From: Thermoleophilia bacterium
Lineage (GTDB): Bacteria; Actinomycetota; Thermoleophilia; Solirubrobacterales; 70-9
Assembly: GCA_016650125.1 (NCBI GenBank)
Contig: JAENWT010000005.1
Coordinates: 1 to 64,000 of the forward strand
Direction of reading: 5' to 3'
DNA: 64,000 bases
This document shows, piece after piece, positions 3,891 to 42,273 of the stretch. Positions within the stretch are counted from its first letter, which is position 1. The number at the start of each line of letters is the position of its first letter. The notes beneath the pieces were generated by a model, which had not been told where the DNA came from, made no database searches, and was given only the letters and a program-made list of their open reading frames with translations. The translations under genes and the position numbers were made by a program.

Positions 3891-5372
3891 TCAGCCGCTG
3901 ACCGGGTCGCCGAACGGACTGACGATGTGATCGCGAACCGGCTTGAGCGAGAACGCCGGTGAGTCGTTGCCCTCGTAGGTGGCCTTCACGAGGCCACGTT
4001 CGTGGCGGCCGAGCCGGGTCTCGATCGAATCGCTGAAGACTCCAGTGCGGTTGGCATTTACGGTGGCGAGCTTCTTCCAGTTCTTGCTGCCGGCCGCGCG
4101 GAAGCTCAGCTTCACCTTGCCCGCGGTGCTGTCCGGAGTGCGTCCCCAGATCGCAATCCCCTTGGGTTTGCTGAACGCGACAAACGGAAAGCTGAACGCC
4201 TTGAGGACCCGCTTGGGCCGGTCCCCGGCAACGGTCGGACCGCGGAAATAGAGCCCCGCGTCGATCGTCTGGCTGTAAGGAAGCCCGGCCGGCCTCTTCC
4301 AGTCCCGCAAGGAGAGCCAGAAGAACTTGCTGACTCCGGCCTGCCACGACCGGAACATCGCTTCCGCTGTCCATCTGGTCAGGAGGCCCATCGGCACTCC
4401 CCCGGGGTCTGGCGGTGCGGAGTCCCAGCTGAATTCCGTGATCCAGAACGGAATCGACTTCTCATGCGTGCGGATGTTGCCGGCTGCGTTCGCCTTCCTG
4501 ATGAGTCTGGCCATTTCGCGGAGATCACCAAGCTGCACGTCGTCGGGGGACACCGACTCATGGGTGGGCCCACCGCTCGTGTACGCACTGTGTGCCCAGA
4601 CGTCGAATCGGGCCGTCTGCGTGCAGCCGGGTATCGGCCGCGGATGGGCCCGGCCCTTCATGCAGAGCAGGCGCCGCGTGAAATCAAGCGGGCTGGGCGA
4701 TCCCGAACCGCCGAGGGGCGCCAGGCCGCCTGCCACGACCACGTTCCCCGGATCGACGCCTTTGACGACATCGGCGAATTGGTTGAGAAGGTTGCGATAG
4801 AGGTCGACTGAAACGGGCTTGCCGCTCTTGCCGTTCCGGTACTGAGGCATGAAATGCATGGCGAGGTTGGGTTCGTTCAGCGGTTCCCAGTACCTGACCC
4901 TGGGGAGGCCGCCGAAGTCACCGCTGTACCGTGCGACCGCCGCAGCGGCGAAGCGGGCGAACTGCTTGGGGTCCGGGTTGCAGACTCCCGCGTTAGGAGT
5001 CCGGCAGCGCTCCGCCCACCGGGGTGCCTTGAAGACCTGGACCAGTGGTTTGAGCCCGGCAGCGACTACCTTCTGGATCGTGGAGTCAGTTGCGGTCCAG
5101 TCGTAATGCGAGTCGCCCGGGTTTGTCGGACTCCATTCGTCCGGTTTCACGTTCGGCGCGACGGAGTCCCAGAAGATCGTCACTCTCGTGAAGGTGGCGC
5201 CAGCTTCCCGTATCCGATCGAATCCCAGCTGCTCTTGGGCGCCTATATCGATAGTAGTCACACCCGTGTCGAGGGGCCGGGCAGCCGAGGCCGTCCCGTT
5301 CAGGATGCCGAAGGCGGCAAGCGAGAGCATCCCCACCAGAATCAGGCTGGCGATCCTGCGGGGGTGGAGCAT
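3891..5372 (-). CDS. Secreted glycoside hydrolase, clan GH-A-like (paralogue 1)
   Basis: 493 residues. A signal peptide (residues 1-30, ending TASA) precedes a TIM-barrel-like domain. WEPLNEPN places the likely acid/base at Glu167 and WITEFSWDS the likely nucleophile at Glu313, the spacing expected of clan GH-A retaining enzymes (GH5/GH39-like). Residues about 390-480 form a small beta-rich C-terminal domain ending in FSLKPVRDHIVSPFG. Two paralogues lie at 15685-17235 and 23518-24993. The ATG follows the stop of the small anchored protein by one base, so they are coupled. The substrate is unknown; the polysaccharide context suggests a cell-surface glycan. Confidence 0.8.
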   Translation of the reverse strand: MLHPRRIASLILVGMLSLAAFGILNGTASAARPLDTGVTTIDIGAQEQLGFDRIREAGATFTRVTIFWDSVAPNVKPDEWSPTNPGDSHYDWTATDSTIQKVVAAGLKPLVQVFKAPRWAERCRTPNAGVCNPDPKQFARFAAAAVARYSGDFGGLPRVRYWEPLNEPNLAMHFMPQYRNGKSGKPVSVDLYRNLLNQFADVVKGVDPGNVVVAGGLAPLGGSGSPSPLDFTRRLLCMKGRAHPRPIPGCTQTARFDVWAHSAYTSGGPTHESVSPDDVQLGDLREMARLIRKANAAGNIRTHEKSIPFWITEFSWDSAPPDPGGVPMGLLTRWTAEAMFRSWQAGVSKFFWLSLRDWKRPAGLPYSQTIDAGLYFRGPTVAGDRPKRVLKAFSFPFVAFSKPKGIAIWGRTPDSTAGKVKLSFRAAGSKNWKKLATVNANRTGVFSDSIETRLGRHERGLVKATYEGNDSPAFSLKPVRDHIVSPFGDPVSG

Positions 5373-5373
5373 G

Positions 5374-5841
5374 TCAGGTGATCCGAGTCTGGTGACTGCG
5401 GCGGCGGGCGAATGCGAATGCGATGGCCGCCCCGGCGACCGCGATCAGCAGCAGGGGAAAGAGCCAGCCCATTCCGTCATCCTCGCTTTCGGGCACTATC
5501 GACTGGGATGCCGAAGACGTTTCAGAGGCATTCGATCCGACCGAGCCGGAATCGTCAGTGCCGGAGCCACCCTGCCCGTTGGAGGAGCCATTGCTCGAGA
5601 CGCCGCCGCTTCCCGCAGAATTCGAGTCGCCCGCGGTTGTCGCAGTCACACCGGCTGCAGTGCCGGAACCTGAAGGGCCGTTCCCCCCGGAGCCTCCGTT
5701 GACCGGCTGTTCGCCGCCTGCCGTGGGTACCTGCTCCGTGTACTGGTCGACGACCGATGGGGCCGCGGAAGCGAAAGCGGTCCCGCCGACGAAGAGCAGC
5801 GAGAAGGCGATCGTGAGGATAGCTGTACGTTTGTGTTTCAT
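5374..5841 (-). CDS. Small secreted, membrane-anchored protein (tag-like, copy 1)
   Basis: 155 residues from ATG 5841. A signal peptide (KHKRTAILTIAFSLLFVGG) is followed by the mature start APSVVDQYTEQVP, then about 75 residues of Gly/Ser/Thr/Asn-rich linker, an acidic stretch, a C-terminal helix (WLFPLLLIAVAGAAIAFAFA) and RRRSHQ. The same plan and the same 13-residue motif occur in 24980-25537. In both cases a glycoside hydrolase gene follows directly. The layout is that of a surface protein held by a C-terminal anchor or sorting signal. No enzymatic domain is visible and the function is unknown. The mRNA carries CCTCCT instead of a Shine-Dalgarno just before the ATG. Confidence 0.75.
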   Translation of the reverse strand: MKHKRTAILTIAFSLLFVGGTAFASAAPSVVDQYTEQVPTAGGEQPVNGGSGGNGPSGSGTAAGVTATTAGDSNSAGSGGVSSNGSSNGQGGSGTDDSGSVGSNASETSSASQSIVPESEDDGMGWLFPLLLIAVAGAAIAFAFARRRSHQTRIT

Positions 5842-15684: not shown

Positions 15685-17235
15685 TCAACCGAAAGGTGGC
15701 TGGTAACGATCCTTGACCGGACGCAGCGAGAAGGATCGCGATGTCTGGCCGTGGTAGGTCGCGCGGACATCGCCTCGCTTCTTGCGCCCCAGCTTTCGCG
15801 CCAATCTGGTCTTGATGACGGAGCGGAAGATTCCGTTGCGGTCGGCTTTCGCGGTGCCTATTCGCTTCCAGCTTCCACCCGTTCGGAAGCTGAGTGCCAC
15901 CTTGCCGCCAGTGCTCGCGGCGGTCCGTCCCCAGACCGAGATCCCGCTTTCCTTCCCGAAAGCAACGAAGGGAAAGTGAAAGGCCTTGAGAATTCGCTTC
16001 GGCCGATCCTTGGCGAGGGTCGTTCCGCGGAAGTAGAGGCCCGACTCCATGGTTTCGCTGTAGGGCAGCCCCTTGGGACTTGGCCAGTCCCGGAGACTCA
16101 ACCAGAAGAACTTGCTGACGCCGGATTGCCAGGCGCGGAACATCGCTTCGGACGTCCAGCGCGTGAGCAACCCCATCGGGACTCCGCCGGGATCCGGCGG
16201 TTTCGAATCCCAACTGAACTCGGTCACCCAGAGCGGGATCGAGTTTTGCCCCGTCTTGATCTTCCCGGCGGAATTGGCCGCCCGGAGCAGCTTCCCCATC
16301 TCCGGCAGATCGCCCAGCGAGACATCGTCGGGCCCGGCCGATTCGTGGGTGGGACCGCCGGTCGTATACGGATTTACGGCCCAGATGTCGAAACGGGCCC
16401 TGTCGTGGCAACCGCGTTCGGGCTTTGGATGCTTGCGTCCCGTCATGCAGAGCACGCGCCGGGCAAAGTCGAGTGGACCGAGACCTCCCGGGCGCTCCAG
16501 CGGGGCCAGCCCACCGGCGATCACCTTGTTTCCTGCTTTCACCCCCTTGACGGTTCCGGCGAACCGGTTGAGCAGATTCCGGTAGAGAGTCGGGGAAACC
16601 TTCTTGCCATTCTTGTACTGGGGCTTGAAAAAGAGGGGGAGATTCGGCTCGTTCAAGGGTTCCCAATAGCGAACCCGCGGCAATCCACCGTAGGTTCCGC
16701 TGTAACGCTTTGCGGCCGCCTTCGAAAACCGGGCGAAAGCCTTCGGGTTCGGGTTACAGATGCCCGCCGTCGAGCTCTTGCATCGCTCGGCCCATTTCGG
16801 GGCGGAAAAGATCTGCACCATGGGTGTGAGGCCGGCGTTCACAGCCATTCGGAGCTGAGAGTCGAACTCCGCCCAGCTGTAGTGGGAATCACCGGGGTCG
16901 GTGGGATTCCAGGAACCCGGCTTAGCAGCGGGGGCGACCGAACTCCAATAGATGATCACCCGGGTCATCTTCGCTCCGGCTTTCCTGATCCGGTCGAACC
17001 CGAGCTGTTCCTGGGACCCGATATCGGTGGTCGTCACCCCCGTCGTCAACCGTTGATTCGCAGCGTCAGCCGATTCCACAGTTGGGGCGAGGACCATCGC
17101 GATGCCGATCGACGCAAAGGAGACGGCCAGGATCAGCGTCGTGACCAGATAAGTGGGCAAGACGCGACGGCGACGTCCCGGCGACAGTTGGCCTGATACC
17201 GGATTAATCGGAGATGTCAGTTCAGTTGGTCTCAT
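15685..17235 (-). CDS. Membrane-anchored glycoside hydrolase, clan GH-A-like (paralogue 2)
   Basis: 516 residues from ATG 17235 (a TTG at 17244 is also in frame). Unlike its paralogues it has an N-terminal cytosolic arm with RRRR and a signal-anchor helix (YLVTTLILAVSFASIGIAMVL), and no small coupled gene upstream. WEPLNEPN (acid/base Glu) and WVTEFSWDS (nucleophile Glu) are conserved, as are the Cys-containing loop and the C-terminal beta domain ending in SFSLRPVKDRYQPPFG. Strong identity to 3891-5372 and 23518-24993 shows recent family expansion. It is the last island gene before the rplJ leader, on the same strand. Confidence 0.8.
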   Translation of the reverse strand: MRPTELTSPINPVSGQLSPGRRRRVLPTYLVTTLILAVSFASIGIAMVLAPTVESADAANQRLTTGVTTTDIGSQEQLGFDRIRKAGAKMTRVIIYWSSVAPAAKPGSWNPTDPGDSHYSWAEFDSQLRMAVNAGLTPMVQIFSAPKWAERCKSSTAGICNPNPKAFARFSKAAAKRYSGTYGGLPRVRYWEPLNEPNLPLFFKPQYKNGKKVSPTLYRNLLNRFAGTVKGVKAGNKVIAGGLAPLERPGGLGPLDFARRVLCMTGRKHPKPERGCHDRARFDIWAVNPYTTGGPTHESAGPDDVSLGDLPEMGKLLRAANSAGKIKTGQNSIPLWVTEFSWDSKPPDPGGVPMGLLTRWTSEAMFRAWQSGVSKFFWLSLRDWPSPKGLPYSETMESGLYFRGTTLAKDRPKRILKAFHFPFVAFGKESGISVWGRTAASTGGKVALSFRTGGSWKRIGTAKADRNGIFRSVIKTRLARKLGRKKRGDVRATYHGQTSRSFSLRPVKDRYQPPFG

Positions 17236-17472
17236 ATCTGGCAACTACGGTTGGAACACTCCGGGGCGGGTCCCGTTTCGGTCGCCCTGAGAATGTTTCG
17301 GACCGGCTCTGTTGATTCGTACCCGGAAACCCGAAAGGCAACCAATAGTGCAACACGACCAATTGATTCGTTTTGCGGTCTCGGAAATTCGAAAAGTTGA
17401 CTAACATGAATGTGGGTAACGGAGCAGCGTCCGGCCGCCACTCGGGAGAGAGATGCAAGCCGGAGGAGACGA

Positions 17473-19596
17473 GTGCCAAGAATGGACAACCACGCAAATC
17501 TGTGTCTGATCCGCCTACGGACTTTGGTCGCGCTCCTTGTGAGCATCGCCGCCGGTGCGGTAATCACTTCGGACCAGGCTGCGGCGTCCCGCAAGAACGC
17601 GCCGGTGGAAATCACCATCGTGACCATGAATCAGGCAGCCCTTCTTTCGACGAAGAAGCTGAACCTGAACATAAAAACCAGAATTCCGGTTACCGTTCGA
17701 GTCTGGGCCAGCCCCCGCAACCGCTCGAACCACCGGCCAGCCCGGCTAGTCCGCTTCAAAGAGGCAGGGACCAAGAGGGTCTCCTTCTACCTCGGCGGGC
17801 TGGACCGCGCGAGACTCTCCACCTGCGGAGCCAAAACAGTCAAAGTTGCAGCCAGGTACAGGCGCGGTAGCAAGCCACGCAAGGCCACGGCGAAGAAAAC
17901 CTTGGCTCACAGCTCGAAAGAGTGCCCGCCGACCTTCAAGCCCCCGGTCGCGTCCGACGACCTGGCGGCCACCGACGAAGCGTCAGCCGCGCTGATTCCC
18001 GTTCTCGCCAACGACAGCGACCCCGATGGCCGACCCCTGACCATCGTCTCGGTAGACGATTCAGGAACGACGGGGACCGCAACGCTCGTCGGCCAACGGA
18101 TTCACTACGACCCAGACGGCCAGCTTGAAGCTTTGGCCGAAGGTCAGACCGGCTCCGACACCTTCACTTACACGGTCGAAAACGACAAGGGCAAACGCGA
18201 CACCGCGAGGGTTGCCGTCGACATCGAGGGAATCGACGACCCCAGCAGCCTGAGCATGACTCCGGCGCTTTACCCGGAGTACTCCCCGGAGATCAGCGAC
18301 TACGTCACGCGTTGCGGCGGTAGTCCGGTTCAGATTGACGTGGAAGCCGGGCCTGGCAACACGATCGACATCGACGGACAGGGACCTGCGACGGGTAATT
18401 TCTCAACCGAAGTCGAGCTCAGCGCCAATCAAGGATTCACCTTCGTCCGCGGTGCCGGCAGCCAGGAGGCGACCCACCACGTACGCTGCCTTCCCGCTGA
18501 TTTCCCGGAGTGGACTTTTGAGAAGTTCAGCCCAACGGAGCAGCAGTGGTACATGGTTACGCGAGAGGCCTACAGCATCATGTTCGACGGTGACGGCGTT
18601 CCGGTCTGGTGGTTCAACGACCCCACTTTGCCGGGTGACTTCAAGTATCTGGGTGACGGGACCCTCGCTTGGGCGACCGGTGGAACCAACGACGACACCA
18701 GGTACGAGATCCGGGCGTTCGATGCCACATTGCTCAATACCCTCAGGACGACCGGAAACGAGCTGGATGCCCACGACCTTCAGCTGTTGCCCAATGGCAA
18801 CTACATGGTGATGACCTACATGCCTCGAGCGACCACCACTGACATCAGCGCTTACGGCGGGCCCACCGATGCCACGATCCTGGACGCAGAACTTCAGGAG
18901 ATCGAACCTGACGGCACTCTCGTCTGGTCGTGGAACAGTGGCGGCCACGTTGGGTTCGACGAAACTGGCCACTGGTGGGGGGACTTTGTGCTCAACGTCG
19001 GCACGACCAGCGGTACTTATGACGTGGTGCACATGAATTCGGCCCAGGTTGTGGAGGACTCCGTTGTCGTCTCCATGAGACACACCGACGCGATCTACAA
19101 AATTGACCTGAGCACCGGCGACATCGTCTGGAAGCTTGGAGGGACCTCTACTCCGGAAAGTCTCACCGTCCTCGGAGATCCCTTTGGCGCGAACCCGTTA
19201 GGTGGCCAGCACTATGCCCGAATCCTTGCCGACGGCACCCTCACAGCATTCGACAACGGCATGCTAAAGGGTCGACAACCTCGGGCTGTTCAGTACTCAA
19301 TCGACGAAGAATCCGGGACCGCGACCCTCTTGGAATCAGTTGTTGACCCAGATGTTCCTGCCGCAATCTGCTGCGGCTCAGCTCGCCGCTCGGAAACGGG
19401 AAGCTGGCTGATGGCCTGGGGCGGCCCAGGAACGACCGAGTACCCCGTGACCGAATTCGCGGCTGATGGTTCGAGGACATTCAGGCTCGGTTTTCTTCCG
19501 GCTGGGGCCTTCACCTACCGGGTCCACTCGGTGCCGCGAGGCGTGATCGCAGCCACCGAACTGCGGTCCGGGATGGATAGGCAGTTCCCCCGCTAG
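17473..19596 (+). CDS. Secreted arylsulfotransferase with cadherin-like domain
   Basis: 707 residues. GGAGGAG lies 5 bases before a GTG at 17473, which I take as start; an ATG follows at 17482. A hydrophobic signal segment (LVALLVSIAAGAVI) is followed by a basic domain. Next comes a cadherin-like/VCBS unit (VLANDSDPDGRPLTIVSVDD, then GSDTFTYTV). From about residue 350 a beta-propeller of the arylsulfotransferase type starts, with repeated W/D-rich strands, ELDAHDLQLLPNGNYMVM and GGQHYARILADGTL carrying the two histidines expected near the active site. PAPS-independent sulfate transfer between aryl groups is the family reaction; the substrate is unknown. Confidence 0.8.
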   Translation: MPRMDNHANLCLIRLRTLVALLVSIAAGAVITSDQAAASRKNAPVEITIVTMNQAALLSTKKLNLNIKTRIPVTVRVWASPRNRSNHRPARLVRFKEAGTKRVSFYLGGLDRARLSTCGAKTVKVAARYRRGSKPRKATAKKTLAHSSKECPPTFKPPVASDDLAATDEASAALIPVLANDSDPDGRPLTIVSVDDSGTTGTATLVGQRIHYDPDGQLEALAEGQTGSDTFTYTVENDKGKRDTARVAVDIEGIDDPSSLSMTPALYPEYSPEISDYVTRCGGSPVQIDVEAGPGNTIDIDGQGPATGNFSTEVELSANQGFTFVRGAGSQEATHHVRCLPADFPEWTFEKFSPTEQQWYMVTREAYSIMFDGDGVPVWWFNDPTLPGDFKYLGDGTLAWATGGTNDDTRYEIRAFDATLLNTLRTTGNELDAHDLQLLPNGNYMVMTYMPRATTTDISAYGGPTDATILDAELQEIEPDGTLVWSWNSGGHVGFDETGHWWGDFVLNVGTTSGTYDVVHMNSAQVVEDSVVVSMRHTDAIYKIDLSTGDIVWKLGGTSTPESLTVLGDPFGANPLGGQHYARILADGTLTAFDNGMLKGRQPRAVQYSIDEESGTATLLESVVDPDVPAAICCGSARRSETGSWLMAWGGPGTTEYPVTEFAADGSRTFRLGFLPAGAFTYRVHSVPRGVIAATELRSGMDRQFPR

Positions 19597-19626: not shown

Positions 19627-21237
19627 TCAGCGGGCGCCCGTGCGCCTGGTTACGGCGGTAATCGTGCGAAGCAGCAGCTTCAGATCCTCGATGAGGGTCC
19701 ATCCGATGACGTAGGTGTAGTCGAGCTTGAGCATGTCGTGCATTGGGATGTCACTCCTGCCCATGACCTGCCAGGGACCGGTTATACCGGGCCTCATCTT
19801 TTCCCTGACCTTGAAATCTTCACTGACCAGGCTCGATTCATCCAGTGGCAGCGGCCTCGGCCCGACCAGGCTCATGTCGCCCACCAGGACGTTCCAGAGC
19901 TGGGGAATCTCGTCGATCGACCAGTTGCGCAGGTAGTTGCCAACCCGGGTAATCCGGGGGTCGCGGTCAATCTTGAGCATGCCGCCGTTGTTGCCGTGCC
20001 CCTGCGACCTGAGTTCGTCCCGCTGCAGATCGGCATCTGCCGCCATCGTGCGCAGTTTCACCACGTCAAACGTCCCGCCGTTCCGTCCGCCTCGTGGCTG
20101 CCGGAAGATGACCGGGCCTGGCGAATCAAGCCGAATCGCCAGGGCAGAGAACATCAGCACCGGGGATGCGACGATCAGGAAGCTCGCGGAGACGAGAATG
20201 TCGAGTGCCCGCTTGAAGCTGGCCGCAAGGGGCTGCTGCCTCGAGGGTCGCATGCTCATGACGGCCATACCTTCGAGATGGTGGAGTGAAGTGCTCGGGT
20301 AGAACGTCTCCGGACCCCCGGCAACGAAGTCGACGATTATCCCGTTCTCGACCAGCTTGCGAACGAGTTTGGAACGCATCGAGAAGCTGCCCGAACCTCC
20401 GGCGATTATCGCCCGCTCGACATCGTTCTCGATCAGGCGGTCGATCATTTCTTCGGTGCTCAGCTTGTGCTGGGACCGCCTGCCGACATCCCCCGCCTCG
20501 TTGGACGAGTAGAGCAGGAAGTTGCCCGAGAGATCCATCTCGAATTCGCATCGGACGTCGAGTGACCACTCCGGATGACGCTCCATCCGCTCCGAAAGGG
20601 CACTCAGGCCGAACGCATCGCCAATTGAAGCGACCGGGCGGAGGTTCCAGCTTCGGCTGCGGGCGGAGGTCCTGAGTACTGCCCGGAAGACCAGGAGCGA
20701 CCCGATCATCAGGATCCACATCAGCATCGGCGCGGTGAACTCATGCGCACCGGGCACCAGCGTCGCGGAGATCAGGACGAAGACCCAGGCCCAGGCCGTG
20801 GCGGAAACCACGATCGGACCGATTTCATCGACGTAGTCCTCGTAGATCCGGCGGTCGACCTGATGGTAAAGACCGCCGGCGTAAGCAATGACGAACCACA
20901 CGGGAATCGATGCGACCAGCGCCGCGGCATATCCAACGGAGTCCGAGGTTGCCTCTCCCCGGTTCGCCACCCCTACCGCAAGAAATGCGGCAACCAGAAT
21001 GGCGACCAGGTCCGAAACCGCGAGCAGGCGGTGGTAGACGTAGCCGGCGCGACCGCCCGGCGAACTGGGCCTGGCGGGTGCCGGCTCTTCCGGTCGTCTC
21101 AAATACGCGTCCGGCTCACGCACCGTCGGGGTTTCGGCAACCAACCCCGTACCAGCGTCACCTTCATGCGACGAATCGGCAGGTCGTTCGTTTCTACGCC
21201 TGTCCTTCAGTTCAGCATCCATGCCTGGAGTTCTCAC
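19627..21237 (-). CDS. Polyprenyl-phosphate sugar phosphotransferase (priming enzyme)
   Basis: 536 residues. A charged N-terminal arm precedes four membrane helices (about 75-205) and a cytosolic domain, then a fifth helix at about 350 (DILVSASFLIVASPVLMFSALAI). The catalytic C-terminal bacterial sugar transferase domain follows (VKLRTM, TRVGNYLRNWSIDEIPQLWN, DMSLVGPRPLPLDE, MRPGITGPWQVMGRSD). It transfers a sugar phosphate from a nucleotide sugar to undecaprenyl phosphate, the first step of glycan assembly. The start is GTG 21237 or ATG 21222; AGGAAAGG fits the latter better. It is divergent from the GT4 gene at 21461; a decayed copy of the same divergent pair lies at 26079-28094. Confidence 0.93.
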   Translation of the reverse strand: MRTPGMDAELKDRRRNERPADSSHEGDAGTGLVAETPTVREPDAYLRRPEEPAPARPSSPGGRAGYVYHRLLAVSDLVAILVAAFLAVGVANRGEATSDSVGYAAALVASIPVWFVIAYAGGLYHQVDRRIYEDYVDEIGPIVVSATAWAWVFVLISATLVPGAHEFTAPMLMWILMIGSLLVFRAVLRTSARSRSWNLRPVASIGDAFGLSALSERMERHPEWSLDVRCEFEMDLSGNFLLYSSNEAGDVGRRSQHKLSTEEMIDRLIENDVERAIIAGGSGSFSMRSKLVRKLVENGIIVDFVAGGPETFYPSTSLHHLEGMAVMSMRPSRQQPLAASFKRALDILVSASFLIVASPVLMFSALAIRLDSPGPVIFRQPRGGRNGGTFDVVKLRTMAADADLQRDELRSQGHGNNGGMLKIDRDPRITRVGNYLRNWSIDEIPQLWNVLVGDMSLVGPRPLPLDESSLVSEDFKVREKMRPGITGPWQVMGRSDIPMHDMLKLDYTYVIGWTLIEDLKLLLRTITAVTRRTGAR

Positions 21238-21460
21238 CTTTCCTGATAACCGAATCTCTTTTCAATGCAACACTTGCCGTTCAACCTTGTTGCGGTCCTC
21301 CAGCTTCATGATTTCACGGTGATCCAGAACCCACCCCTGACTTTTAATTCTGGCCCTGCAAAACAGGAAGTTGATTTCAAGTGTAACGCTTCCAATGGAG
21401 ATCCTGTTGCTAACCTCAACCACTAGTGACCCTGTACCCGGAATCTAAATCGCTACTCAT

Positions 21461-22654
21461 ATGAGGATTCAACTCTGGAGTTGCAACTACGCCCCTGAGC
21501 CGATGGGTATCGCACCGCTAAGTGCCATCTGGGCCCGGGAAATGGCCCGTCGAGGCCACGAAGTCGACGTCGTCGCTGCCCACCCTCACTACCCACAGCC
21601 AGAATGGGGTTCCCGCGTAATGCCCTACCGTGAGGTCCGGGACGGGATACCGGTGACCCGCCTGCCTCTGATCATCGGCCGCAAGCGGAAATCGCAGCGA
21701 CTGGTGCAGGAACTGAGCTTCATGGCCGCGCAGGCGGCCGCTGCGCCGTTCCTCGGTAGTCCCGATGTCCTGATTTCGGTTACGCCCAGTTTTCCGGCAC
21801 TGTTGCCAGGGATGATCAACACCCGCCTGAGGCGGGTCCCGTGGGTGCTCTGGGTCCAGGACATACTTCCCGATGGAGCGGCGACGACCGGTTACGTCGA
21901 AGAAGGTGGGATCGCCTACCTCTTGTCTCGCCGACTCGAGTCGGCATCATACGAAGCCGCCAGCAGCATCATCGTGTTGTCAGAAGGCTTCAGAAGCAAC
22001 CTGGTTGCCAAAGGGGTCCCACCAGAGAAGATCTCGCTTGCCTACAACCCGGCGACGATTGTTGCTGATCCCTCATCCATTGAGCGTGGCAAGATCCCTG
22101 GCCCGCCTCGAGTGCTCTGCATGGGAAACATCGGCAAATCTCAGGGGCTTGCCCGCATCGTCGAGACATTCGAAGCCGACGCACGTTTGACCGAGCTTGG
22201 AGCCGAACTCATCCTGACGGGTGCCGGGGTTGCCGAAGACGAGGTCAGGGCGGCGATCAAAACGGACCGGGTCAAGATGCTGGGAGTCATCGAACTGGCC
22301 GCCCTAAAGTACGAAATTGCCCGCTCACATCTTGGTGCGGTCACCCAGGCTTATTCGGGAGGCGAGTTCAACGTACCCTCGAAACTCATGAACTACATGG
22401 CGGCCGGCCTGCCAGTCGTAGCGTCGGTCAGGCCGGAAAGTGAGGCGGCCCGTATCGTCCAACAGTCCGGAGCTGGCTGGATTTCGGATAGCGCGGACCC
22501 GTCAGGCTTCGTCGAATCGATAGTCGAGGCAATGTCGCGGCCCGACGAACTTACTAGGCGCAGCGAGGCCGGCATTGAGTTCGCCGGTAACAATCTCTCT
22601 ACCGAGGCCCTCGCAGATAGGTTCGACGTGGCACTATTACACGCGACCAGCTGA
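21461..22654 (+). CDS. GT4-family glycosyltransferase, WcaI-like (intact copy)
   Basis: 397 residues with a GT-B fold: the N-terminal domain starts QLWSCNYAPEPMGIAP and contains HEVDVVAAHPHYPQPEW. The linker region WVLWVQDILPDGA is followed by the C-terminal nucleotide-sugar domain (RVLCMGNIGKSQGL, AELILTGAG, YSGGEFNVPSKLMNYMAAGLPVVA with the EX7E-like acidic residue). It presumably adds a sugar to the lipid-linked intermediate. It is divergent from the priming transferase, 223 bases away. A second copy at 26892-28094 is interrupted by a stop codon. Confidence 0.9.
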   Translation: MRIQLWSCNYAPEPMGIAPLSAIWAREMARRGHEVDVVAAHPHYPQPEWGSRVMPYREVRDGIPVTRLPLIIGRKRKSQRLVQELSFMAAQAAAAPFLGSPDVLISVTPSFPALLPGMINTRLRRVPWVLWVQDILPDGAATTGYVEEGGIAYLLSRRLESASYEAASSIIVLSEGFRSNLVAKGVPPEKISLAYNPATIVADPSSIERGKIPGPPRVLCMGNIGKSQGLARIVETFEADARLTELGAELILTGAGVAEDEVRAAIKTDRVKMLGVIELAALKYEIARSHLGAVTQAYSGGEFNVPSKLMNYMAAGLPVVASVRPESEAARIVQQSGAGWISDSADPSGFVESIVEAMSRPDELTRRSEAGIEFAGNNLSTEALADRFDVALLHATS

Positions 22655-22765: not shown

Positions 22766-23521
22766 TTGTCTGATCCCAGAATCCGGATGGCGTGGGCCAA
22801 GTCTCGCAAGCTAGTTCGCCTTCTCGGGAATCGTGCCTACTGGCCAGCGCTTAGAAGGGGCGTTGCCGCCTCGGTGGAGCATTCTCGGATCCCATTCGGA
22901 GCTGATTTCACGACGGTGCTGGACGTTGGTGCATCACGGGGACAGTTCGCCCTCTTTTCCGTAGAACGCTTTCCGGATGCGAACATAATTTGCTTCGAGC
23001 CGCAGCCCGGGCCAGCTGGTGACTTGCGCAGGGTCCTCGGTGATCGCGTGGAATTGATCGGTACGGCGTTGGGTCCGGAGCCCGGCATGGCGACCATGAA
23101 CATCTCGGCCCAGGACGATTCATCCTCGCTCCTCGCAATAGGGGAGAGGCAGGTGGCCGAGTTCCCGGGGACTGGAACCAATCACACGATCGAAGTGCCC
23201 GTCACTACCCTCGACGATGCGCTTCAGGGGACCATCGCCCGACCATGCCTACTCAAGATCGACGTTCAGGGCTTCGAACTTGGCGTCCTGCGCGGTGCTC
23301 ACAGAGTTCTCCGCGAGGTCGACACCGCCTTCATTGAGTGTTCATTCGTTGAACTCTACGAGGGCCAGGCCCTGGCCGAAGAAGTCGTTTCGTTCATGCA
23401 GGACTCGGGGTTTCGCCTCGCCGGCGTGCATGAGATCGCGTACTCAGCAGATGGCTCGGCTATCCAAGGTGACTTCCTCTTCCGCCGGTCGGAAGTGGAA
23501 AACAACCCAGAAGCTGTTTAA
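22766..23521 (+). CDS. FkbM-family SAM-dependent methyltransferase (intact)
   Basis: 251 residues from a TTG start; an in-frame ATG at 22787 is the alternative. SAM motif I is VLDVGASRGQFALF, followed by IICFEPQPGPAG (the acidic loop binding the ribose), VPVTTLDDAL, and LLKIDVQGFELGVLRG, the FkbM hallmark. These enzymes O-methylate sugar hydroxyls. A truncated near-copy lies at 3672-3875. The stop overlaps the convergent hydrolase stop by 4 bases. Confidence 0.9.
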   Translation: MSDPRIRMAWAKSRKLVRLLGNRAYWPALRRGVAASVEHSRIPFGADFTTVLDVGASRGQFALFSVERFPDANIICFEPQPGPAGDLRRVLGDRVELIGTALGPEPGMATMNISAQDDSSSLLAIGERQVAEFPGTGTNHTIEVPVTTLDDALQGTIARPCLLKIDVQGFELGVLRGAHRVLREVDTAFIECSFVELYEGQALAEEVVSFMQDSGFRLAGVHEIAYSADGSAIQGDFLFRRSEVENNPEAV

Positions 23522-24993
23522 CGGCCGAAAGGTGGCTGTCGAAAGTCCTTAACCGGTCGGAGCGAGAAGGGAAGCGATGAGCCGCCCTTGAACACGGCGC
23601 GTACATCTGCCGAACTTCTCTTACTCAGCCCCCTCGCAACTTTGGTCTTGATCAGAGAGCTGAAGATGCCGTTACTGTCGGCGCTGACCACAGCTAGTTG
23701 TTTCCAGGCCCCCTTGGCCTTATACCTGAGGATGACCCTGCCTGAAGCACTGGTCGGTGTCCGTCCCCAGATCGAGACCCCGGACTTCTTTCCGAAAGCA
23801 ACAAAGGGAAACTGAAAGGCCCTGAGGTTTCGCTTCGGGCGGTCCTCCCCGAGGGTCTCGCCGCGAAAGTAGAGTCCAGACTCGAAGGACTCCCTGAATG
23901 GCGTTCCGGCAGGTCGCGGCCAGTCCCTCAGGCTGAGCCAAAAGAAGTTACTGACTCCGGCCTTCCAGGCACGGAACATCGCCTCAGAGGTCCACCTCGA
24001 AAGGATGCCCATTGGGAGTCCTCCGGGATCTGGGGGCTTTGAGTCCCAGCTGAATTCGGTCACCCAGAATGGGATCGCCTTCTGCTTGGTCCGGATCTTG
24101 CCTGCCGAGTGAGCAGCCCTGAGCAACTTGCCCATCTCAGGCAAATCACCGAGGGAAACATCGTCGGGACCGGCCGACTTATGGGTGGGTCCGCCGGTCG
24201 TAAACGGATTGTTCGCCCAGATGTCGAACGAGGCTTTGTTGCCGCAGCCTGGTATCGGTTTCGGGTTTGCTCGGCCCTTCATACACATCACCCGGCGAGC
24301 AAAGTCCAATGGGCCGAGGCCTCCGGGCCTCTCAATCGGAGCCAGCCCACCAGCAACGATCTGGTTGGACGGGTTAACTCCCTTGACTGCATCGGCGAAA
24401 CTATTCAGAAGATTGCGATAAAGAATCGGCGAGACCTTCTTGCCGTTCTTGTACTGGGGCTCGAAGAAGAGGAAAAGGTTTGGCTCGTTCCATGGTTCCC
24501 AGAAGCGAACCCGCGGTAGTCCGCCAAAGTCCCCGTTGTAGCGAATCGCAGCCGCTTTTGAAAACTCAGCGAAAGCATCCGGGTCGGGGTTGCAGATACC
24601 CGAAGGAGAGATTCCCGAAGTCGGGATATTGCAACGCTCAGCCCATCGAGGTGCGGAGAAAATCTGCACGAGGGGGGTGAGTCCCGAATTGACAGCTCCC
24701 TGGATCTGAGCATCGAAAGAAGCCCAGTCGTAGTTCTGGTCAGAAGGATTCGAGGGATCCCATGAAGACGGCTCGGTGGAAGGAGCTACCTGATCCCAGA
24801 ATATGATCACCCTGGTAGACGTTGCACCCGCATCCCGGATGCGGTCGAAGGCTTCTTGACCCTGGGGCACGACGTCGGGTGTCGTAATCCCGGTCTTCAA
24901 TGGCCTGCTCGCAGAAGCCGAGGCACCGACAAACCAAAAGGTGGCGGCAAGGGCGACTGCGACGACTAGGAAGGAAAACTTAACTGACATCGT
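23518..24993 (-). CDS. Secreted glycoside hydrolase, clan GH-A-like (paralogue 3)
   Basis: 491 residues from ATG 24993; an upstream start at 25038 is in frame but would overlap the preceding gene more. A signal peptide (SFLVVAVALAATFWFVGASASA) is followed by the barrel with WEPWNEPN (acid/base) and WVTEFSWDS (nucleophile), and by the beta domain ending in PFSLRPVKDFRQPPFG. WEPW replaces the WEPL of the other two paralogues. It overlaps the small anchored protein by 14 bases, so translation is coupled, as with copy 1. A surface-glycan-processing role is inferred from the neighbourhood. Confidence 0.8.
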   Translation of the reverse strand, partial: TMSVKFSFLVVAVALAATFWFVGASASASRPLKTGITTPDVVPQGQEAFDRIRDAGATSTRVIIFWDQVAPSTEPSSWDPSNPSDQNYDWASFDAQIQGAVNSGLTPLVQIFSAPRWAERCNIPTSGISPSGICNPDPDAFAEFSKAAAIRYNGDFGGLPRVRFWEPWNEPNLFLFFEPQYKNGKKVSPILYRNLLNSFADAVKGVNPSNQIVAGGLAPIERPGGLGPLDFARRVMCMKGRANPKPIPGCGNKASFDIWANNPFTTGGPTHKSAGPDDVSLGDLPEMGKLLRAAHSAGKIRTKQKAIPFWVTEFSWDSKPPDPGGLPMGILSRWTSEAMFRAWKAGVSNFFWLSLRDWPRPAGTPFRESFESGLYFRGETLGEDRPKRNLRAFQFPFVAFGKKSGVSIWGRTPTSASGRVILRYKAKGAWKQLAVVSADSNGIFSSLIKTKVARGLSKRSSADVRAVFKGGSSLPFSLRPVKDFRQPPFGR

Positions 24994-25537
24994 GCCCCCC
25001 GGTTCGCGCGCGCTGCCTGCGAACGAGGTAGGCACCACAAACCAGAACGACGCTAGCGATCAAAACCAGCGGGAAGAGGGCACCCATGCCAGCGTCATCG
25101 TCATTTTTGAGGCCGTCGACCACAGAAGCCACAGCTGATTTCGAGTCGTTCGACTCGGTATTCGAGGGGCTACGCTGGCTTCCACCACTGGTGGCACCGC
25201 TCCGAGCTGCTGCCGGTCCCGATGATCCACTGGTTTCGGGAGTCCCGCCATCAGTGCTCTGGGGTAACGAGCTGCTGCCGGGGCCACTCGTGGAAGATCC
25301 GGCAGGCGATGCGGTGCCATCGCTCCCTCCGCCAGGCTCGGTGAGGTCTCCCGATTTCTTGTCTCCGCCAGGCGAAGGAACTTGCTCGGTGTACTGGTCG
25401 ACCACAGATGGAGCGGCCAGGACGGTGGAACCGCCAAAAGAAGAGATTCCAACTGCCAGAATCACCACAAGCGTGACGCGGCGAAACGTGCGAAGAATGG
25501 AAAATTCTCGAGTACTACCAGCTTTGGGAAATGTCAT
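24980..25537 (-). CDS. Small secreted, membrane-anchored protein (tag-like, copy 2)
   Basis: 185 residues. A signal peptide (RVTLVVILAVGISSFGG) ends before APSVVDQYTEQVP, the same 13 residues as in copy 1 (5374-5841). Then follow about 90 residues of Ser/Gly/Pro/Thr linker and an acidic DDDAGMG motif (DDGMG in copy 1). A C-terminal helix (LFPLVLIASVVLVCGAYLV) and RRQRAR close the protein. Only the ends are conserved; the linker has diverged in sequence and length. AGGGCAGG lies 8 bases before the ATG. The gene runs directly into the hydrolase. The function is not known; a surface anchor, scaffold or processing substrate is possible. Confidence 0.78.
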   Translation of the reverse strand: MTFPKAGSTREFSILRTFRRVTLVVILAVGISSFGGSTVLAAPSVVDQYTEQVPSPGGDKKSGDLTEPGGGSDGTASPAGSSTSGPGSSSLPQSTDGGTPETSGSSGPAAARSGATSGGSQRSPSNTESNDSKSAVASVVDGLKNDDDAGMGALFPLVLIASVVLVCGAYLVRRQRARTGGHDVS

Positions 25538-25749
25538 AAGTAATCCTGCCCTTCAATCTCTGGATTAAGTCCGTGACGGGAGAATTCAGTGTCGGCAGAG
25601 GTCGTCGACGGAACGCACGGGCTAATTGGACCACAACCTACGCATCTACCCCTTCAAACGGGTGGCCACACCTGATTGAACCCGGAATGGAAGAAAAAGT
25701 ACCGCCCCAAGAATGGCACAGTTGGTTCCAGGACGCTTCTAACGCCAGA

Positions 25750-26084
25750 TCAAGGGCAGGAACCCGCTTTTTTGGCCAGACAGATTGTATTTTCCAATTG
25801 GACACCGTCGAGCGTTGCGTCTCCTAAACGGGCACTTTCAAGGTTGGCGTTCTCGAAATTGGCTCCCTCGAGATTCGCGTTCCTCAGATCGGAGTCTTGC
25901 ATGTTCATGCCCCGCAGGGTGGCGAAAGTTAGGTTGGCCTTCCGTAGATCGGCACCCTTGAGGTTCGCTTTGGCGAGGTTCGTGTTGCCAGGAAGGCGCT
26001 TCCCAGGTTTCCGTCGACGAAGGTCGGCAAAACCAAGGTTAGTCGCTTCAAGCGTGGCTCCGGTGGCAGTCGCCTCTGCGAGGT
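25750..26084 (-). pseudogene. 3' fragment of a pentapeptide-repeat protein gene
   Basis: The minus strand encodes about 105 residues of pentapeptide repeats (ANLKGADLRKANLTFATLRG, SDLRNANLEGANFENANLES) ending in QLENTICLAKKAGSCP. The composition matches the lipoprotein gene at 35987-36742, whose tail is GAQWKGATCPNGKK. Its own 5' end is missing: upstream the sequence changes at about 26080 to a sugar transferase fragment in another frame. Confidence 0.7.
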
Positions 26085-26841: not shown

Positions 26842-26891
26842 AACCCGGTCTAACGTTTCATGAAACCACGGCGAGATTGAGTGGCCGACTG

Positions 26892-28094: not shown

Positions 28095-28112
28095 ACCAGC
28101 TCGAGGCTCGAA

Positions 28113-34581: not shown

Positions 34582-35913
34582 ATGAAGGTGGGTACCGTGG
34601 GCGATGGTGAGCGACGGAGGCTGACCCGGAACCATCCCATCCTGATCGTCGCGCGCGGCCCTAACGCGCAAACCCTCGGTGTGACAATTGCCGCTCAGGC
34701 GCTGACCCTGATGAGTGGTGTGATCGCGGCGCGGGCTCTTGGCGTAGACGGTCGGGGACAGCTCGCTTTATTGTGGTTATTGCCACTGATTCTGGCTCAG
34801 CTCGGAGGGATCGGCATTCCCCAGGCGACGACTTATTTTGTCGCCCGTGATCCTGGAAACACCGCCGGGATCGTGCGCATGTCGCTTTCTCTGGTGATGA
34901 CACTTGCACTATTGGTGAGTATCGCGTATGCGGTGGGCCTGGTTTTCCTCTCCGACTCGGGCAGATCCTTTTCGACTCTCGACGGCGCGCTCAGCGTCAG
35001 CCTCATACCGTTTCTGCTCTTCCAGGGTATGGGTCCAGCGACACTTCTCGGACTTTCCAACTACACCGCCTTCAACGTGGCTCGAATTGCACCTGCCGCG
35101 CTGTATGCCTTCGGCGCCATAGTCCTTCTCGCGGTTGGCGGAGCTACCCTGACTTCCTTCCTCGCGACATCCCTGACAGCCTGGCTGGTCGGTGGCGTGT
35201 TCGGCTGGTGGCTCCTGCTGAGGCAAATGCCACCGGGGCGAGATGCGACGGAGGCGAACGGCCGGAAGATTCTCGGGTTCGGCGCTCGTGGGGTGATAGG
35301 GGGCTTCTCGGCGATCGACGACGTCAGGCTGGATCAGGTCTTCGTTGGCCTTTGGCTGGACGCCAGATCTCTCGGACTGTATGTGGCTGCCGTCGCCTTC
35401 TGCAATCTGCCCAAGTTCGTTGCTCAGGGCATCGGAGCGGTGGCGTTTCCCAGAGTGGCATCCTCGGCAACGTCACAACAGGCCTGGGCCGAGACCTACC
35501 GCGCCCTAAGGATCGGGGCGACCCTCATAGTGCTATGCGTAACGGGGCTGATCCTCACGCTTCCGTTCCTTCTCCCCTTCATGTTCGGAGAAGATTTCAA
35601 GGATGCGATTCCGATTGGACGAATTCTTCTGCTCGGAGCACTTTTCCTCGCGATCCACCGCCTGCTCAATGAACTGGCTAGAGGCCTCGGCCACCCTGGC
35701 TACGGTTCAATAACTGAACTGGTCAACACCGTGGTGTTCCTGGTTGGCCTGGCTATCTTCGCAACACCGCCCTCCGCCGAGGGCGTGGCATACGCGGTAG
35801 TCGCCGGCGGAGTCGCGAGTTCTTTCCTGCTGGCGTTATTGCTGATACGGCTCAGATCCCGGAGTGACGGGTTTCGCCCTCCAGCCCCGCCCGCCACATC
35901 GGAGGCCCCTTGA
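34582..35913 (+). CDS. Polysaccharide flippase (Wzx/MOP superfamily)
   Basis: 443 residues, almost entirely hydrophobic, with about 12 membrane segments. It starts with GVTIAAQALTLMSGVIAARALGVDGRGQLALLWLLP, the typical first helix pair of the polysaccharide-transporter family. FMFGEDFKDAIPIGRILLLG lies near the last helices. Such proteins flip undecaprenyl-linked glycan units across the inner membrane for polymerisation. The short charged C-terminal tail ends in PPAPPATSEAP. It fits between the assembly transferases and the polymerases of the island. It lacks the C-terminal domain of MviN-type proteins. Confidence 0.85.
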   Translation: MKVGTVGDGERRRLTRNHPILIVARGPNAQTLGVTIAAQALTLMSGVIAARALGVDGRGQLALLWLLPLILAQLGGIGIPQATTYFVARDPGNTAGIVRMSLSLVMTLALLVSIAYAVGLVFLSDSGRSFSTLDGALSVSLIPFLLFQGMGPATLLGLSNYTAFNVARIAPAALYAFGAIVLLAVGGATLTSFLATSLTAWLVGGVFGWWLLLRQMPPGRDATEANGRKILGFGARGVIGGFSAIDDVRLDQVFVGLWLDARSLGLYVAAVAFCNLPKFVAQGIGAVAFPRVASSATSQQAWAETYRALRIGATLIVLCVTGLILTLPFLLPFMFGEDFKDAIPIGRILLLGALFLAIHRLLNELARGLGHPGYGSITELVNTVVFLVGLAIFATPPSAEGVAYAVVAGGVASSFLLALLLIRLRSRSDGFRPPAPPATSEAP

Positions 35914-36769: not shown

Positions 36770-38170
36770 CTAATCCTCCTTGGTGGAGGAAAGGGATAGT
36801 TCCCTCGCCTGAGCGAGCAAGAACATTCCCATAATCAGCGCCGGCGGGATGTAGACGTGCCTGTCAACTATCTGATTGTTGACCATACCCATGACCAGAT
36901 ACAGGACCAGCGAGATCATTAGACCGATGCAGGTAAACCTGAGATCAATGGGCACTATTGACCGGAGGCGAAACACCATTTTCAGGTAGCCGGCCATTGC
37001 CAGTCCGAATGCGATCAAGGCGATAAGACCCCCCGCGAGAAGCAGCTGCAGGTAAATGTTGTGCGAAGCCTCGACCCACTCGTAGCCGTAGCCCAGAACC
37101 GGGCGCTCCTTGATGAACCCGACCGAATTTTCGATCCAGGCCCCCCGCTCAGAGTCCGCGTATTCGGACGACTCTGCCCCTGGATGAAGCGCCCTGCTCA
37201 AACTAACCGGAATTAGTTTGCCAATATCACTTTCCGGGGAAGCGTATGCGCCAAGTCCGACGAGCCCAACCACGACGAGGGCGCACGCGGCGATCGCCAG
37301 AACCGTCCGCCGGGGGAGAGTCTTGACTTTCTCGCGGAACCTCCCATCCATACCGATGGTCAGGCCGATGGAAAGTACGAGACCAACGGCTGCGGCTCGG
37401 GAACCGCTGACAAGAATGGCATATGCCAACAGGGCCAGCACTGGTCCGTACCTGATTACTCCTTGCCGCGTCTTCATTCTCGCCAGAACCAGGGGGCTGA
37501 CCAGCATCGCCGTCAGACCTAGAGTATTCGGGTGGTCAGTAAGACCAACCTGTCTGTCAAGAATCACGAGGTAGCGATTGAGGGTTTCCGGATCGTAAGT
37601 GACTGCCTTCTGTATCCCGAGGCCCAACACGACGTCAAGCAAAGCCACGGCGCAGCTAATCGAAACTCCAACGATCCAGAAGTCAACCAGTAGCTTGATC
37701 GTGGACCAGCGGTCGATGGCAATCCCGACCGCAATGGGGAAAGCGACCAACGCGAAGATCAGCCGGAACCCCATCACGACCGAAGATCCATCGCCTATTC
37801 CGTCAATGACGAGTGCATTCAGAAGGCGCTCGGGATCGAGCGGTGGCAGGATAGCGATCAGTCCAATGCTCAGGAGTATCAGCGCCGCCGCAACCCAGAG
37901 CCACTTTGGAAAGCGGCCCACCTTTCCCTGGAGGATGAAGAGGATGAACGAGACAGGCAGAAGCAGTGCGATCAGAAAGTCCGCCAAGGCGACATCGGCG
38001 GTTGGCCGCAGGGAGTTCATCGGCAGAGTCAGAAACACGGCCACGAGGATCCATTTCCCCGCGGTGAACAGAGGAGCCCTGATCCCGGCCTGGTCAAGCG
38101 AAGGCTCGCTCGGATTGGCAAGCATTGACGTCTTGATCGACTCCGTGATCTTTTTTCCCTTGAGATACAT
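36770..38170 (-). CDS. O-antigen polymerase/ligase-like membrane protein 1
   Basis: 466 residues with 10-12 membrane helices. The Wzy_C region shows ILVSGSRAAAVGLVLSIG and, in the large periplasmic loop, ERGAWIENSVGFIKERPVLGYG with SHNIYLQLLLAGGLIALI, the usual R...H pattern of O-antigen ligases and polymerases. It would polymerise or ligate flipped glycan units. A perfect 8-bp hairpin 5 bases before the ATG contains the Shine-Dalgarno (see 38176-38194). It follows the GDP-fucose genes on the same strand. Confidence 0.85.
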   Translation of the reverse strand: MYLKGKKITESIKTSMLANPSEPSLDQAGIRAPLFTAGKWILVAVFLTLPMNSLRPTADVALADFLIALLLPVSFILFILQGKVGRFPKWLWVAAALILLSIGLIAILPPLDPERLLNALVIDGIGDGSSVVMGFRLIFALVAFPIAVGIAIDRWSTIKLLVDFWIVGVSISCAVALLDVVLGLGIQKAVTYDPETLNRYLVILDRQVGLTDHPNTLGLTAMLVSPLVLARMKTRQGVIRYGPVLALLAYAILVSGSRAAAVGLVLSIGLTIGMDGRFREKVKTLPRRTVLAIAACALVVVGLVGLGAYASPESDIGKLIPVSLSRALHPGAESSEYADSERGAWIENSVGFIKERPVLGYGYEWVEASHNIYLQLLLAGGLIALIAFGLAMAGYLKMVFRLRSIVPIDLRFTCIGLMISLVLYLVMGMVNNQIVDRHVYIPPALIMGMFLLAQARELSLSSTKED

Positions 38171-40317: not shown

Positions 40318-42273
40318 TCATTCGATGGTAAAGAGCACCGATTTGGGATTCAGGCTACGGGCCTTTTCAAATGCCTTCCGGGATTGTTCTTTTGACTTCA
40401 TTTCTAGGAGGTGGGACAGGACATACCAGTTCCGCCAGTTGCCTGTTTCATCTTCGGTCGCCTCGCGGGCGAGTTTTATGGCCTCCTGATCCCGATCCAG
40501 GAGTTCAAGCACTTGTGCCACCTGAATCTTGGCTGAAGCCGAATACGGCTGGATATCTACCGCGTCGGTGGCCTGATCGAGCGCATTTGTCAGGTTGCCC
40601 GAACGAACCGATTCCTGGCTTGAACGGTAAGCCATCGTTGCCGCCAGTGGAACCGCAATCAGAGCAATCATGGCCAGAGCCACGATGCCGACGGGAACCC
40701 TGACCGCCCAGCTGGGCGGGGCGACTCGGGTCGGAGCAGGCTCCTCCTCGTCGTCCTGGGCGAAAACGCCGACCACCCCAGCAGTGAGTACGAAAAACAT
40801 GACCGGGAGAATTGTGAGCTCCCAGGCCCAGTCGATCCCCGCACCTACGGCAAAAGCGGCCATCCCGGCCCCAGCCGCAGCGATCAGGCCGCGCCTCTCG
40901 TCAAGACCGCGCCGGAGTGCGAGAGCGATGGCAATCCCAAGCGGCCCCAGGATGAGCGCGACGGTCAGGATGATCCCGAGCAGTCCCATCTCCGCGAATC
41001 CCTCCAGATATATGCTGTGGCCGTCTCGGACGAACTGCACGCCCTCGCCCTCGCGTGCCCAGAAGTATTCGAATGCCCCGGGCCCGATGCCGGTCACTGG
41101 CTCCGACTTGCCGGCGTCGACGTCGGCCTTCCAGATCAGGTACCTCTCTCCGCTATTCACATTGGCGAGTCGACTCACGGTCCCGGAAGCCGTGGGTACC
41201 TTGAATTCCGACCACTTGTCCCCGACGAATCCGCTCGAGACGGCTAATAGTAGTACGAGAACGGTTGCGATGCCCGCTGTGATTCCGGCAGCCTGCGCCC
41301 CAGCGCGGCTTCCTCTGGGCGCCTTCCAGCCGAATCTTTTTGCGACCAGCAATGCACACGCCTGAATTGCCACACAGACAGCGAATACACCAAGGGTCAG
41401 CCAGAGCATCTGGGTTCCTTGGGTCTTAGTCACATTTCCAGGAGCGAGGTCCCGCAACTCGGGGCGCTTGTTCACCAGGACGACGAGCAGAATTGATCCC
41501 ACCGCCGGGACGACCATGCTCAGAATGAGCTGGATCCGCCTCGGGAACAAAACCAGCATGGCCACCAGGACGGCCGCGCCTTCGATCACGCCACCACGCG
41601 AAGCGGTCAGGTAACCGGCGAGTACCAGGAGCGGCAACGCCCCAGCCGCGGCCGCCCTGCCTGCGACCGTCCGGCCGGTAGCGCCTATCCATAGCATGGG
41701 CCCGGCGCCCATGGCGACGAAGATCGCAAGCCCGTTCCAGTATTCAAGGGGATAGTTGAGCCTCGCCCGCGGGTAATCGGCGGGGAAGGCGTAGTCGGTC
41801 CCGAAAGGCAGCAGGTCGGGTTCGAATCGATCGAACAGGGCGATCACCGAGACGATCGCAACGGCGGCGGCTATTGCGGCCACCGCGTACCTAAGACCAT
41901 CCCTTCCCTGGATCAGGATCATCAGCAAGAAGACGCCGGACAGAGTCGCGACCCGGCTTAACTCGATGACGCTGCGCTCGGTGCTTTCGGTCCAGAAGAG
42001 CGTGCCAGCGAGGGTCCAGACGAACAGCGCGCCCACGATGGCCAACACGATGCGCCCGGCTGTAGTAATCCGCGCAGCCGGAAGTACGCCGACGACGATC
42101 CCGAGCAGAACCGCCCACCAGACGATGATTCCGACCTGGCTTCTGGACACAAGTTCGTATCCCCCCGACGCAAAGGCCAGGTACAGGACCAGGAGGAATG
42201 GAATCCCGAATCCGGATGCGAAACGGAGTCCGTCAGGAAGCCGTTCACTCTTGGGCATGGCCATCTGACTCAT
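40318..42273 (-). CDS. O-antigen polymerase/ligase-like membrane protein 2 with TPR tail
   Basis: 651 residues. About 12-14 membrane helices precede the Wzy_C-type loop (SGERYLIWKADVDAGKSEPV, IGPGAFEYFWAREG, DGHSIYLEGFAEMGLLGIIL), which has the arginine and histidine pattern of ligases. After the last helix (near residue 540) a cytosolic or periplasmic TPR-like region follows (NLTNALDQATDAVDIQPYSA, LDRDQEAIKLAREATE, KARSLNPKSVLFTIE). TPR-containing ligases are known for teichoic-acid-like and pilin glycans. A 17-bp palindrome lies 2 bases before the ATG. It is a second polymerase or ligase beside 36770-38170, perhaps with a different substrate. Confidence 0.82.
   Translation of the reverse strand: MSQMAMPKSERLPDGLRFASGFGIPFLLVLYLAFASGGYELVSRSQVGIIVWWAVLLGIVVGVLPAARITTAGRIVLAIVGALFVWTLAGTLFWTESTERSVIELSRVATLSGVFLLMILIQGRDGLRYAVAAIAAAVAIVSVIALFDRFEPDLLPFGTDYAFPADYPRARLNYPLEYWNGLAIFVAMGAGPMLWIGATGRTVAGRAAAAGALPLLVLAGYLTASRGGVIEGAAVLVAMLVLFPRRIQLILSMVVPAVGSILLVVLVNKRPELRDLAPGNVTKTQGTQMLWLTLGVFAVCVAIQACALLVAKRFGWKAPRGSRAGAQAAGITAGIATVLVLLLAVSSGFVGDKWSEFKVPTASGTVSRLANVNSGERYLIWKADVDAGKSEPVTGIGPGAFEYFWAREGEGVQFVRDGHSIYLEGFAEMGLLGIILTVALILGPLGIAIALALRRGLDERRGLIAAAGAGMAAFAVGAGIDWAWELTILPVMFFVLTAGVVGVFAQDDEEEPAPTRVAPPSWAVRVPVGIVALAMIALIAVPLAATMAYRSSQESVRSGNLTNALDQATDAVDIQPYSASAKIQVAQVLELLDRDQEAIKLAREATEDETGNWRNWYVLSHLLEMKSKEQSRKAFEKARSLNPKSVLFTIE

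Follow-up and report, generated by a model that had tools for sequence, protein, structure and literature searches.

Two genes in a 64,000-nucleotide (64-kb) stretch of DNA from a Thermoleophilia bacterium (Actinomycetota; assembly GCA_016650125.1, contig JAENWT010000005.1, positions 1 to 64,000; hereafter the window) encode small anchored proteins, A and B, which are members of an undescribed family. Genes of this family recurrently adjoin a gene for a protein that combines a Wzy_C (O-antigen ligase) domain with C-terminal tetratricopeptide repeats (TPR), and one tyrosine of the conserved N-terminal peptide is invariant among the members. An acceptor role best fits a secreted, flexible, surface-anchored protein that has one invariant tyrosine and is encoded beside a ligase. 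With moderate confidence, we therefore regard the small protein as a surface-anchored protein dedicated to accepting glycan from a Wzy_C-TPR oligosaccharyltransferase, probably through the tyrosine.

Protein A (155 residues; 5374..5841, minus strand) consists of a signal peptide, the stretch AAPSVVDQYTEQVP, a Gly/Ser linker, an acidic patch, a C-terminal transmembrane segment and an RRR tail. Its conserved N-terminal peptide, APSVVDQYTEQVP, is encoded at 5725..5763 (minus strand), with the invariant Tyr codon at 5740-5742, and the transmembrane segment together with the start of the basic tail lies at approximately 5407..5469 (minus strand). Protein B (185 residues; 24980..25537, minus strand) has the same design, with APSVVDQYTEQVP at 25376..25414 (minus strand) and the invariant Tyr codon at 25391-25393. 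Hydrolase A (secreted, PslG-like or GH39-like, 493 residues; 3891..5372, minus strand) starts at 5372, downstream of the end of gene A at 5374 and separated from it by a single base, whereas the gene for glycoside hydrolase B (23518..24990, minus strand) overlaps the end of gene B, its first ATG being at 24990, within the small gene (24980-25537). An earlier interpretation made from the letters alone (the sequence-only reading) had described two loci of the same design, each with a hydrolase gene overlapping or one base away and with an identical mature N-terminal stretch; all of these elements were recovered, and the stretch shared by A and B (AAPSVVDQYTEQVP) measures 14 residues. It had also held that only the ends are conserved. 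This is true of the window pair, in which the 34% identity between A and B is concentrated at both ends (the hydrolases share 58%), but not of the family, since a middle block (L....L...G..G.A...A), absent from both window copies, is present in most relatives. A degenerate DNA pattern for VDQYTEQ had 2 matches in the window vs. 0.01 expected, and the wider VDQYxExxxP pattern had 2 in the whole 2.83-Mb genome, both within genes A and B.

The family was delineated in 354 Thermoleophilia genomes, most of which are incomplete metagenome assemblies. A single-sequence search with small protein P0002 returned a few true relatives and otherwise mostly low-complexity noise, which was overcome by a motif pattern and an 18-sequence profile. 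With a DNA pattern encoding QYxExxPxxGG, 20 sites were matched (reversed control pattern: 0), nearly all of which lie in proteins that have a signal peptide, often APPGNSAxxQYxExVPxAGG, a low-complexity linker, a C-terminal helix and an Arg-rich tail. The alignment of 18 members (A1) from which the profile was built contains six invariant residues (Q, Y, E, P, G and G). The profile matches proteins A and B at E 2.3e-33 and 3.7e-28, respectively, and has matches in about one third of the genomes of the class, the strong ones being spread over many genera; the named relatives belong to Thermoleophilia, chiefly to Solirubrobacterales. No family member was found outside Thermoleophilia in a profile scan of 396 genomes across the phylum (approx. 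350 of them from outside the class), and the weak matches there, which covered the C-terminal half of the profile alone, were discarded as chance. Searches of the small proteins against Pfam and NCBIfam yielded sub-threshold, compositional matches only. A C-terminal transmembrane segment is present in 84 of 86 members and a basic tail in 81, and the linkers, which are rich in Ser/Gly/Thr in many members, vary widely in composition and length. As a general idea, the proposal of a recognised N-terminal peptide held at the surface by a C-terminal anchor is supported, since both are conserved across approx. 90 diverse members.

The motif Tyr is kept in all 91 non-redundant members (<80% identity). 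Among the 74 members outside the seed, Tyr is found in 74, Q in 59, E in 61, P in 72, the first G in 32 and the second G in 68. Only 32 other tyrosines occur among the 8,396 residues between the motif and the transmembrane segment, and 65 of 93 proteins have none. Unlike the motif Tyr, no Ser/Thr position is invariant in the family; the motif Tyr provides the invariant hydroxyl residue that a dedicated acceptor should have in its exported segment. In four relatives (L247:8031, L257:7994, L263:3288 and L264:7532), in which the ligases are distant Wzy_C-TPR proteins, the neighbouring small secreted protein ends in an LPXTG-type sortase signal, and QY (or GY) is retained soon after the signal peptide. 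Such a swap indicates that the linker and anchor can change while the Tyr stays. The idea that A and B themselves carry a sortase signal was dismissed because neither contains an LPXTG-type motif and no sortase (PF04203) match was found in the window genome in a search with positive controls. Cysteines occur near the motif in 24 members, 22 of which have exactly two, at offsets from the Tyr of mostly -12/+1 and also of -11/+1, -8/+3, -7/-2, -6/-3 and -8/-2; pairs close to the Tyr were seen in L077, L145-L147, L153, L163, L165, L181, L192 and others. Judging by these positions, several lineages may have a disulphide in the vicinity of the Tyr, which suggests that a disulphide-constrained Tyr display might have arisen more than once.

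Gene clustering around 19 relatives and the window revealed one family of approx. 660 residues in 15 of the 20 regions, and it is this family that comprises a Wzy_C domain and C-terminal TPR repeats. Adjacency was assessed in a table of 88 Thermoleophilia small-protein genes, compiled by hand, which includes nearly all matches at E < 1e-5 and a small number of weaker matches that extend over the N-terminus; scoring was restricted to the top candidates in each genome, so the adjacency counts are lower bounds. At least 71 of the 88 genes have a Wzy_C-TPR gene within 600 bp, in divergent orientation in 49 cases; by an arithmetic estimate, well under one would be expected, given approx. three scored ligase matches per 3-Mb genome. 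In the subset at E < 1e-8, at least 57 of 73 adjoin the ligase, and the eight cases that have no ligase on the contig are mostly located at a contig end. A search from the ligase side, in which an alignment of 12 ligases was used against the named genome collection, gave a matching picture: a small protein accompanies nearly all close ligase loci but is missing beside most distant Wzy_C proteins, and controls with reversed sequences returned none. The gene of a dedicated acceptor is expected beside that of its transferase, and this is what is found in most of the tabulated members, though not in the window. A sigma-70 family factor (extracytoplasmic function-like) is encoded near the ligase/small-protein pair in four relatives (L065:7357-7905, L066:4756-5316, L070:10664-11197 and L076:799-1320; assigned by Pfam for L065 only and by BLAST clustering for the other three), and a further small protein of approx. 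90 residues is present in three of these four. Dedicated regulation of the pair by the sigma factor is possible.

The ligase of the window (651 residues; 40318..42273, minus strand) has a WaaL-fold membrane domain and C-terminal TPR. Its Wzy_C domain (PF04932) scores 44.2 bits against a curated cut-off of 31.7, and those of relatives score 50.9-62.9. The AlphaFold2 ligase model (pLDDT 88) has WaaL (7tpg_B) as its top match (Z 22.3 over 378 residues; root-mean-square deviation 4.5), and the predicted TPR domain resembles peptide-binding TPRs. A catalytic-type Arg and a catalytic-type His in the Wzy_C region (R390 and H434 in L065 numbering) are invariant in 28 sequences and are probable equivalents of the functional Arg/His pair of WaaL. 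In the same number of proteins, the mean net charge around the last helix is +3.0 before and -0.2 after it; by the positive-inside rule, the TPR would face outside, although the window ligase is an exception to this charge pattern. The lipid A gene lpxC was not found in the window genome; hence, a WaaL-like ligase is unlikely to add O-antigen to lipid A there, and another acceptor is needed. A separate candidate for the Wzy polymerase is also present, namely a second Wzy_C protein, which lacks TPR (466 residues; 36770..38170, minus strand) and is a probable polysaccharide polymerase.

Within this context, Sec would export the small protein, whose C-terminal helix would remain in the membrane with the basic tail inside, and the flexible linker would display the conserved peptide at the free N-terminus. 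The outward TPR of the WaaL-fold ligase would bind the small protein, and the membrane domain of the ligase would move lipid-linked polysaccharide from the neighbouring Wzx/Wzy pathway onto it, the acceptor residue most probably being the invariant Tyr of [Q/E]-Y-x-E-x-x-P. The PslG-like hydrolase, often encoded in the same operon, would act on the polymer as PslG does on Psl, trimming it or setting it free at the cell surface. More tentatively, and at somewhat under an even chance, this could be a class-wide system of Thermoleophilia in which a WaaL-fold ligase, with its peptide-binding TPR domain on the outside, ties surface polysaccharide to the cell via a Tyr near the free N-terminus of a dedicated tether, the anchor being a membrane helix or a sortase signal depending on the lineage. 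To our knowledge, the retention of long surface polysaccharides in cells without lipopolysaccharide is understood for few lineages, and for a large, little-studied class of soil Actinomycetota this family offers a testable answer: one protein, one predicted site and one predicted enzyme. If the Tyr is the site, a rule of approximately [QE]YxExxP would be suggested for bacterial tyrosine O-glycosylation by a Wzy_C-TPR enzyme, and such a rule could possibly be used in glycoconjugate engineering.

Several points weigh against the acceptor role. The window ligase lies in the same polysaccharide region as the small proteins, at a distance of 15-35 kb and thus without adjacency. PglL_A (PF15864) and Wzy_C_2 were absent from Pfam scans of four ligase members at E <= 0.01, which indicates that the ligase is not a plain PglL. 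The invariance of the Tyr is also compatible with a binding hot-spot, and the Ser/Thr-rich linkers could hold the real sites. In addition, since the profile centres on the motif, members without the Tyr could escape it; in a small motif-independent scan of ligase neighbours, based on signal-peptide and anchor features, every plausible small protein had a Tyr, and small proteins with QY or GY occurred even next to distant ligases.

The strongest alternative, which we nonetheless consider unlikely, is that the small protein assists the Wzy_C-TPR protein without being its substrate, as a subunit that activates or positions a ligase or polymerase or sets its chain length, with the Tyr peptide docking to the TPR. 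TPR domains often bind peptides, the predicted TPR matches peptide-binding ones, and the same linkage and conservation data would also fit such a subunit. However, known polysaccharide co-polymerases do not resemble a flexible tether of low complexity in which a single residue is invariant, and the LPXTG anchor of some lineages would separate the protein from a membrane enzyme. Moreover, the Q and E of the motif drift while the Tyr is fixed, which favours a chemical role over pure docking. Less probable still is an envelope glycoprotein modified on Ser/Thr, by the ligase or by another enzyme, in which the Tyr peptide is a recognition signal only: many members have Ser/Gly/Thr-rich linkers and PglL-type enzymes favour disordered regions (PMC12645811), but these linkers are variable and contain no invariant Ser/Thr, whereas the Tyr is invariant. 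That the N-terminal peptide is a docking tag which keeps the secreted hydrolase at the surface, as the sequence-only reading proposed from the overlapping or nearly abutting window genes, is highly improbable and is rejected as a general function on the neighbourhood counts given below, the recurrent partner being the Wzy_C-TPR ligase.

Among the tabulated small-protein genes, at least 32 of the 88 have a hydrolase within 600 bp, directly downstream on the same strand in 28, and at least 25 have both the ligase and the hydrolase nearby; for the other 56 of the 88 none was listed within 600 bp, and the association with the ligase is far stronger. In the same genus, close homologues of the hydrolase occur with no small protein beside them, and a third hydrolase of the same family in the window (15685..17244, minus strand; start uncertain) is likewise solitary. 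Hence, the motif is common without a hydrolase gene nearby, which is an outcome that the sequence-only reading had itself named as a refutation, and the data do not support a general coupling between peptide and hydrolase. The model of hydrolase A (pLDDT 85) is a clan GH-A barrel with PslG as its closest match (Z 26.7 over 336 residues), other GH39 structures reaching Z 24-26. Residues E167 and E313, invariant in 13 sequences, are the putative catalytic pair of acid/base and nucleophile. In a Pfam scan, no family was assigned to hydrolase P0003, and GH5 was sub-threshold for P0004. Next to the solo hydrolase, an arylsulfotransferase-like protein with a bacterial Ig (Big_9) domain is encoded at 17410-19596, and this protein might modify the polymer.

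The polysaccharide region of the window holds further genes of the pathway: a Wzx-type flippase (polysaccharide biosynthesis protein; 34582..35913, plus strand), an undecaprenyl-phosphate sugar transferase (Bac_transf; 19627..21237, minus strand), GDP-mannose 4,6-dehydratase (39209-40228, minus strand), an NAD-dependent epimerase/dehydratase that is probably of the GDP-fucose synthase type (38241-39212, minus strand), and glycosyltransferases. Broken open reading frames at 25600-28100, which resemble the sugar transferase (25929-26841) and the glycosyltransferase (26877-27356 and 27489-28094) of the block at 19627-22654, look like a decayed duplicate of that block. Pentapeptide-repeat-like proteins, judged by eye from their translations, are encoded at 35987-36742 and 25750-26268. 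Housekeeping genes (rpsG, rpsL, rpoC, rpoB, rplL, rplJ, rplA, nusG and secE) are interspersed in the polysaccharide locus between 400 and 44600, and in relative L070 the small-protein gene likewise adjoins nusG/secE.

Four known systems or enzyme groups come closest. LcpA/GspA of Actinomyces oris shows that a glycopolymer can be attached to a surface protein in Actinomycetota (PMC6381275); however, LcpA belongs to the LCP phosphotransferases and GspA is anchored to the cell wall, whereas the window genome has no sortase match and LPXTG forms are confined to other lineages. PslG of Pseudomonas aeruginosa, an endoglycosidase whose gene belongs to the cluster for the exopolysaccharide Psl (PMC11912335), is the best fold match of the hydrolase A model, but the identity is approx. 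20%, and the hydrolase described here adjoins a small anchored protein. PglL, PilO (TfpO), TfpM and PglS are likewise WaaL-type enzymes with a Wzy_C domain, the genes of which often stand beside those of their acceptors (PMC3643930, PMC12645811), and the glycotag of PglS is a Cys-flanked loop, just as some members of the present family have Cys pairs near the Tyr. Nonetheless, most acceptors known for these enzymes are type IV pilins of Gram-negative bacteria, which carry the glycan on Ser/Thr. In domain architecture, a Wzy_C domain followed by C-terminal TPR, the ligase fits WsfB of Paenibacillus alvei, a predicted transferase, in a system in which the S-layer glycan is Tyr-linked and a lipid-carried polysaccharide ends on specific tyrosines of the surface protein SpaA (PMC2943079). 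This likeness is one of domain architecture, and in P. alvei a large S-layer protein serves as acceptor, with no pairing of its gene with that of the ligase having been described, whereas in these Actinomycetota the acceptor would be a small tether in which only one Tyr is conserved.
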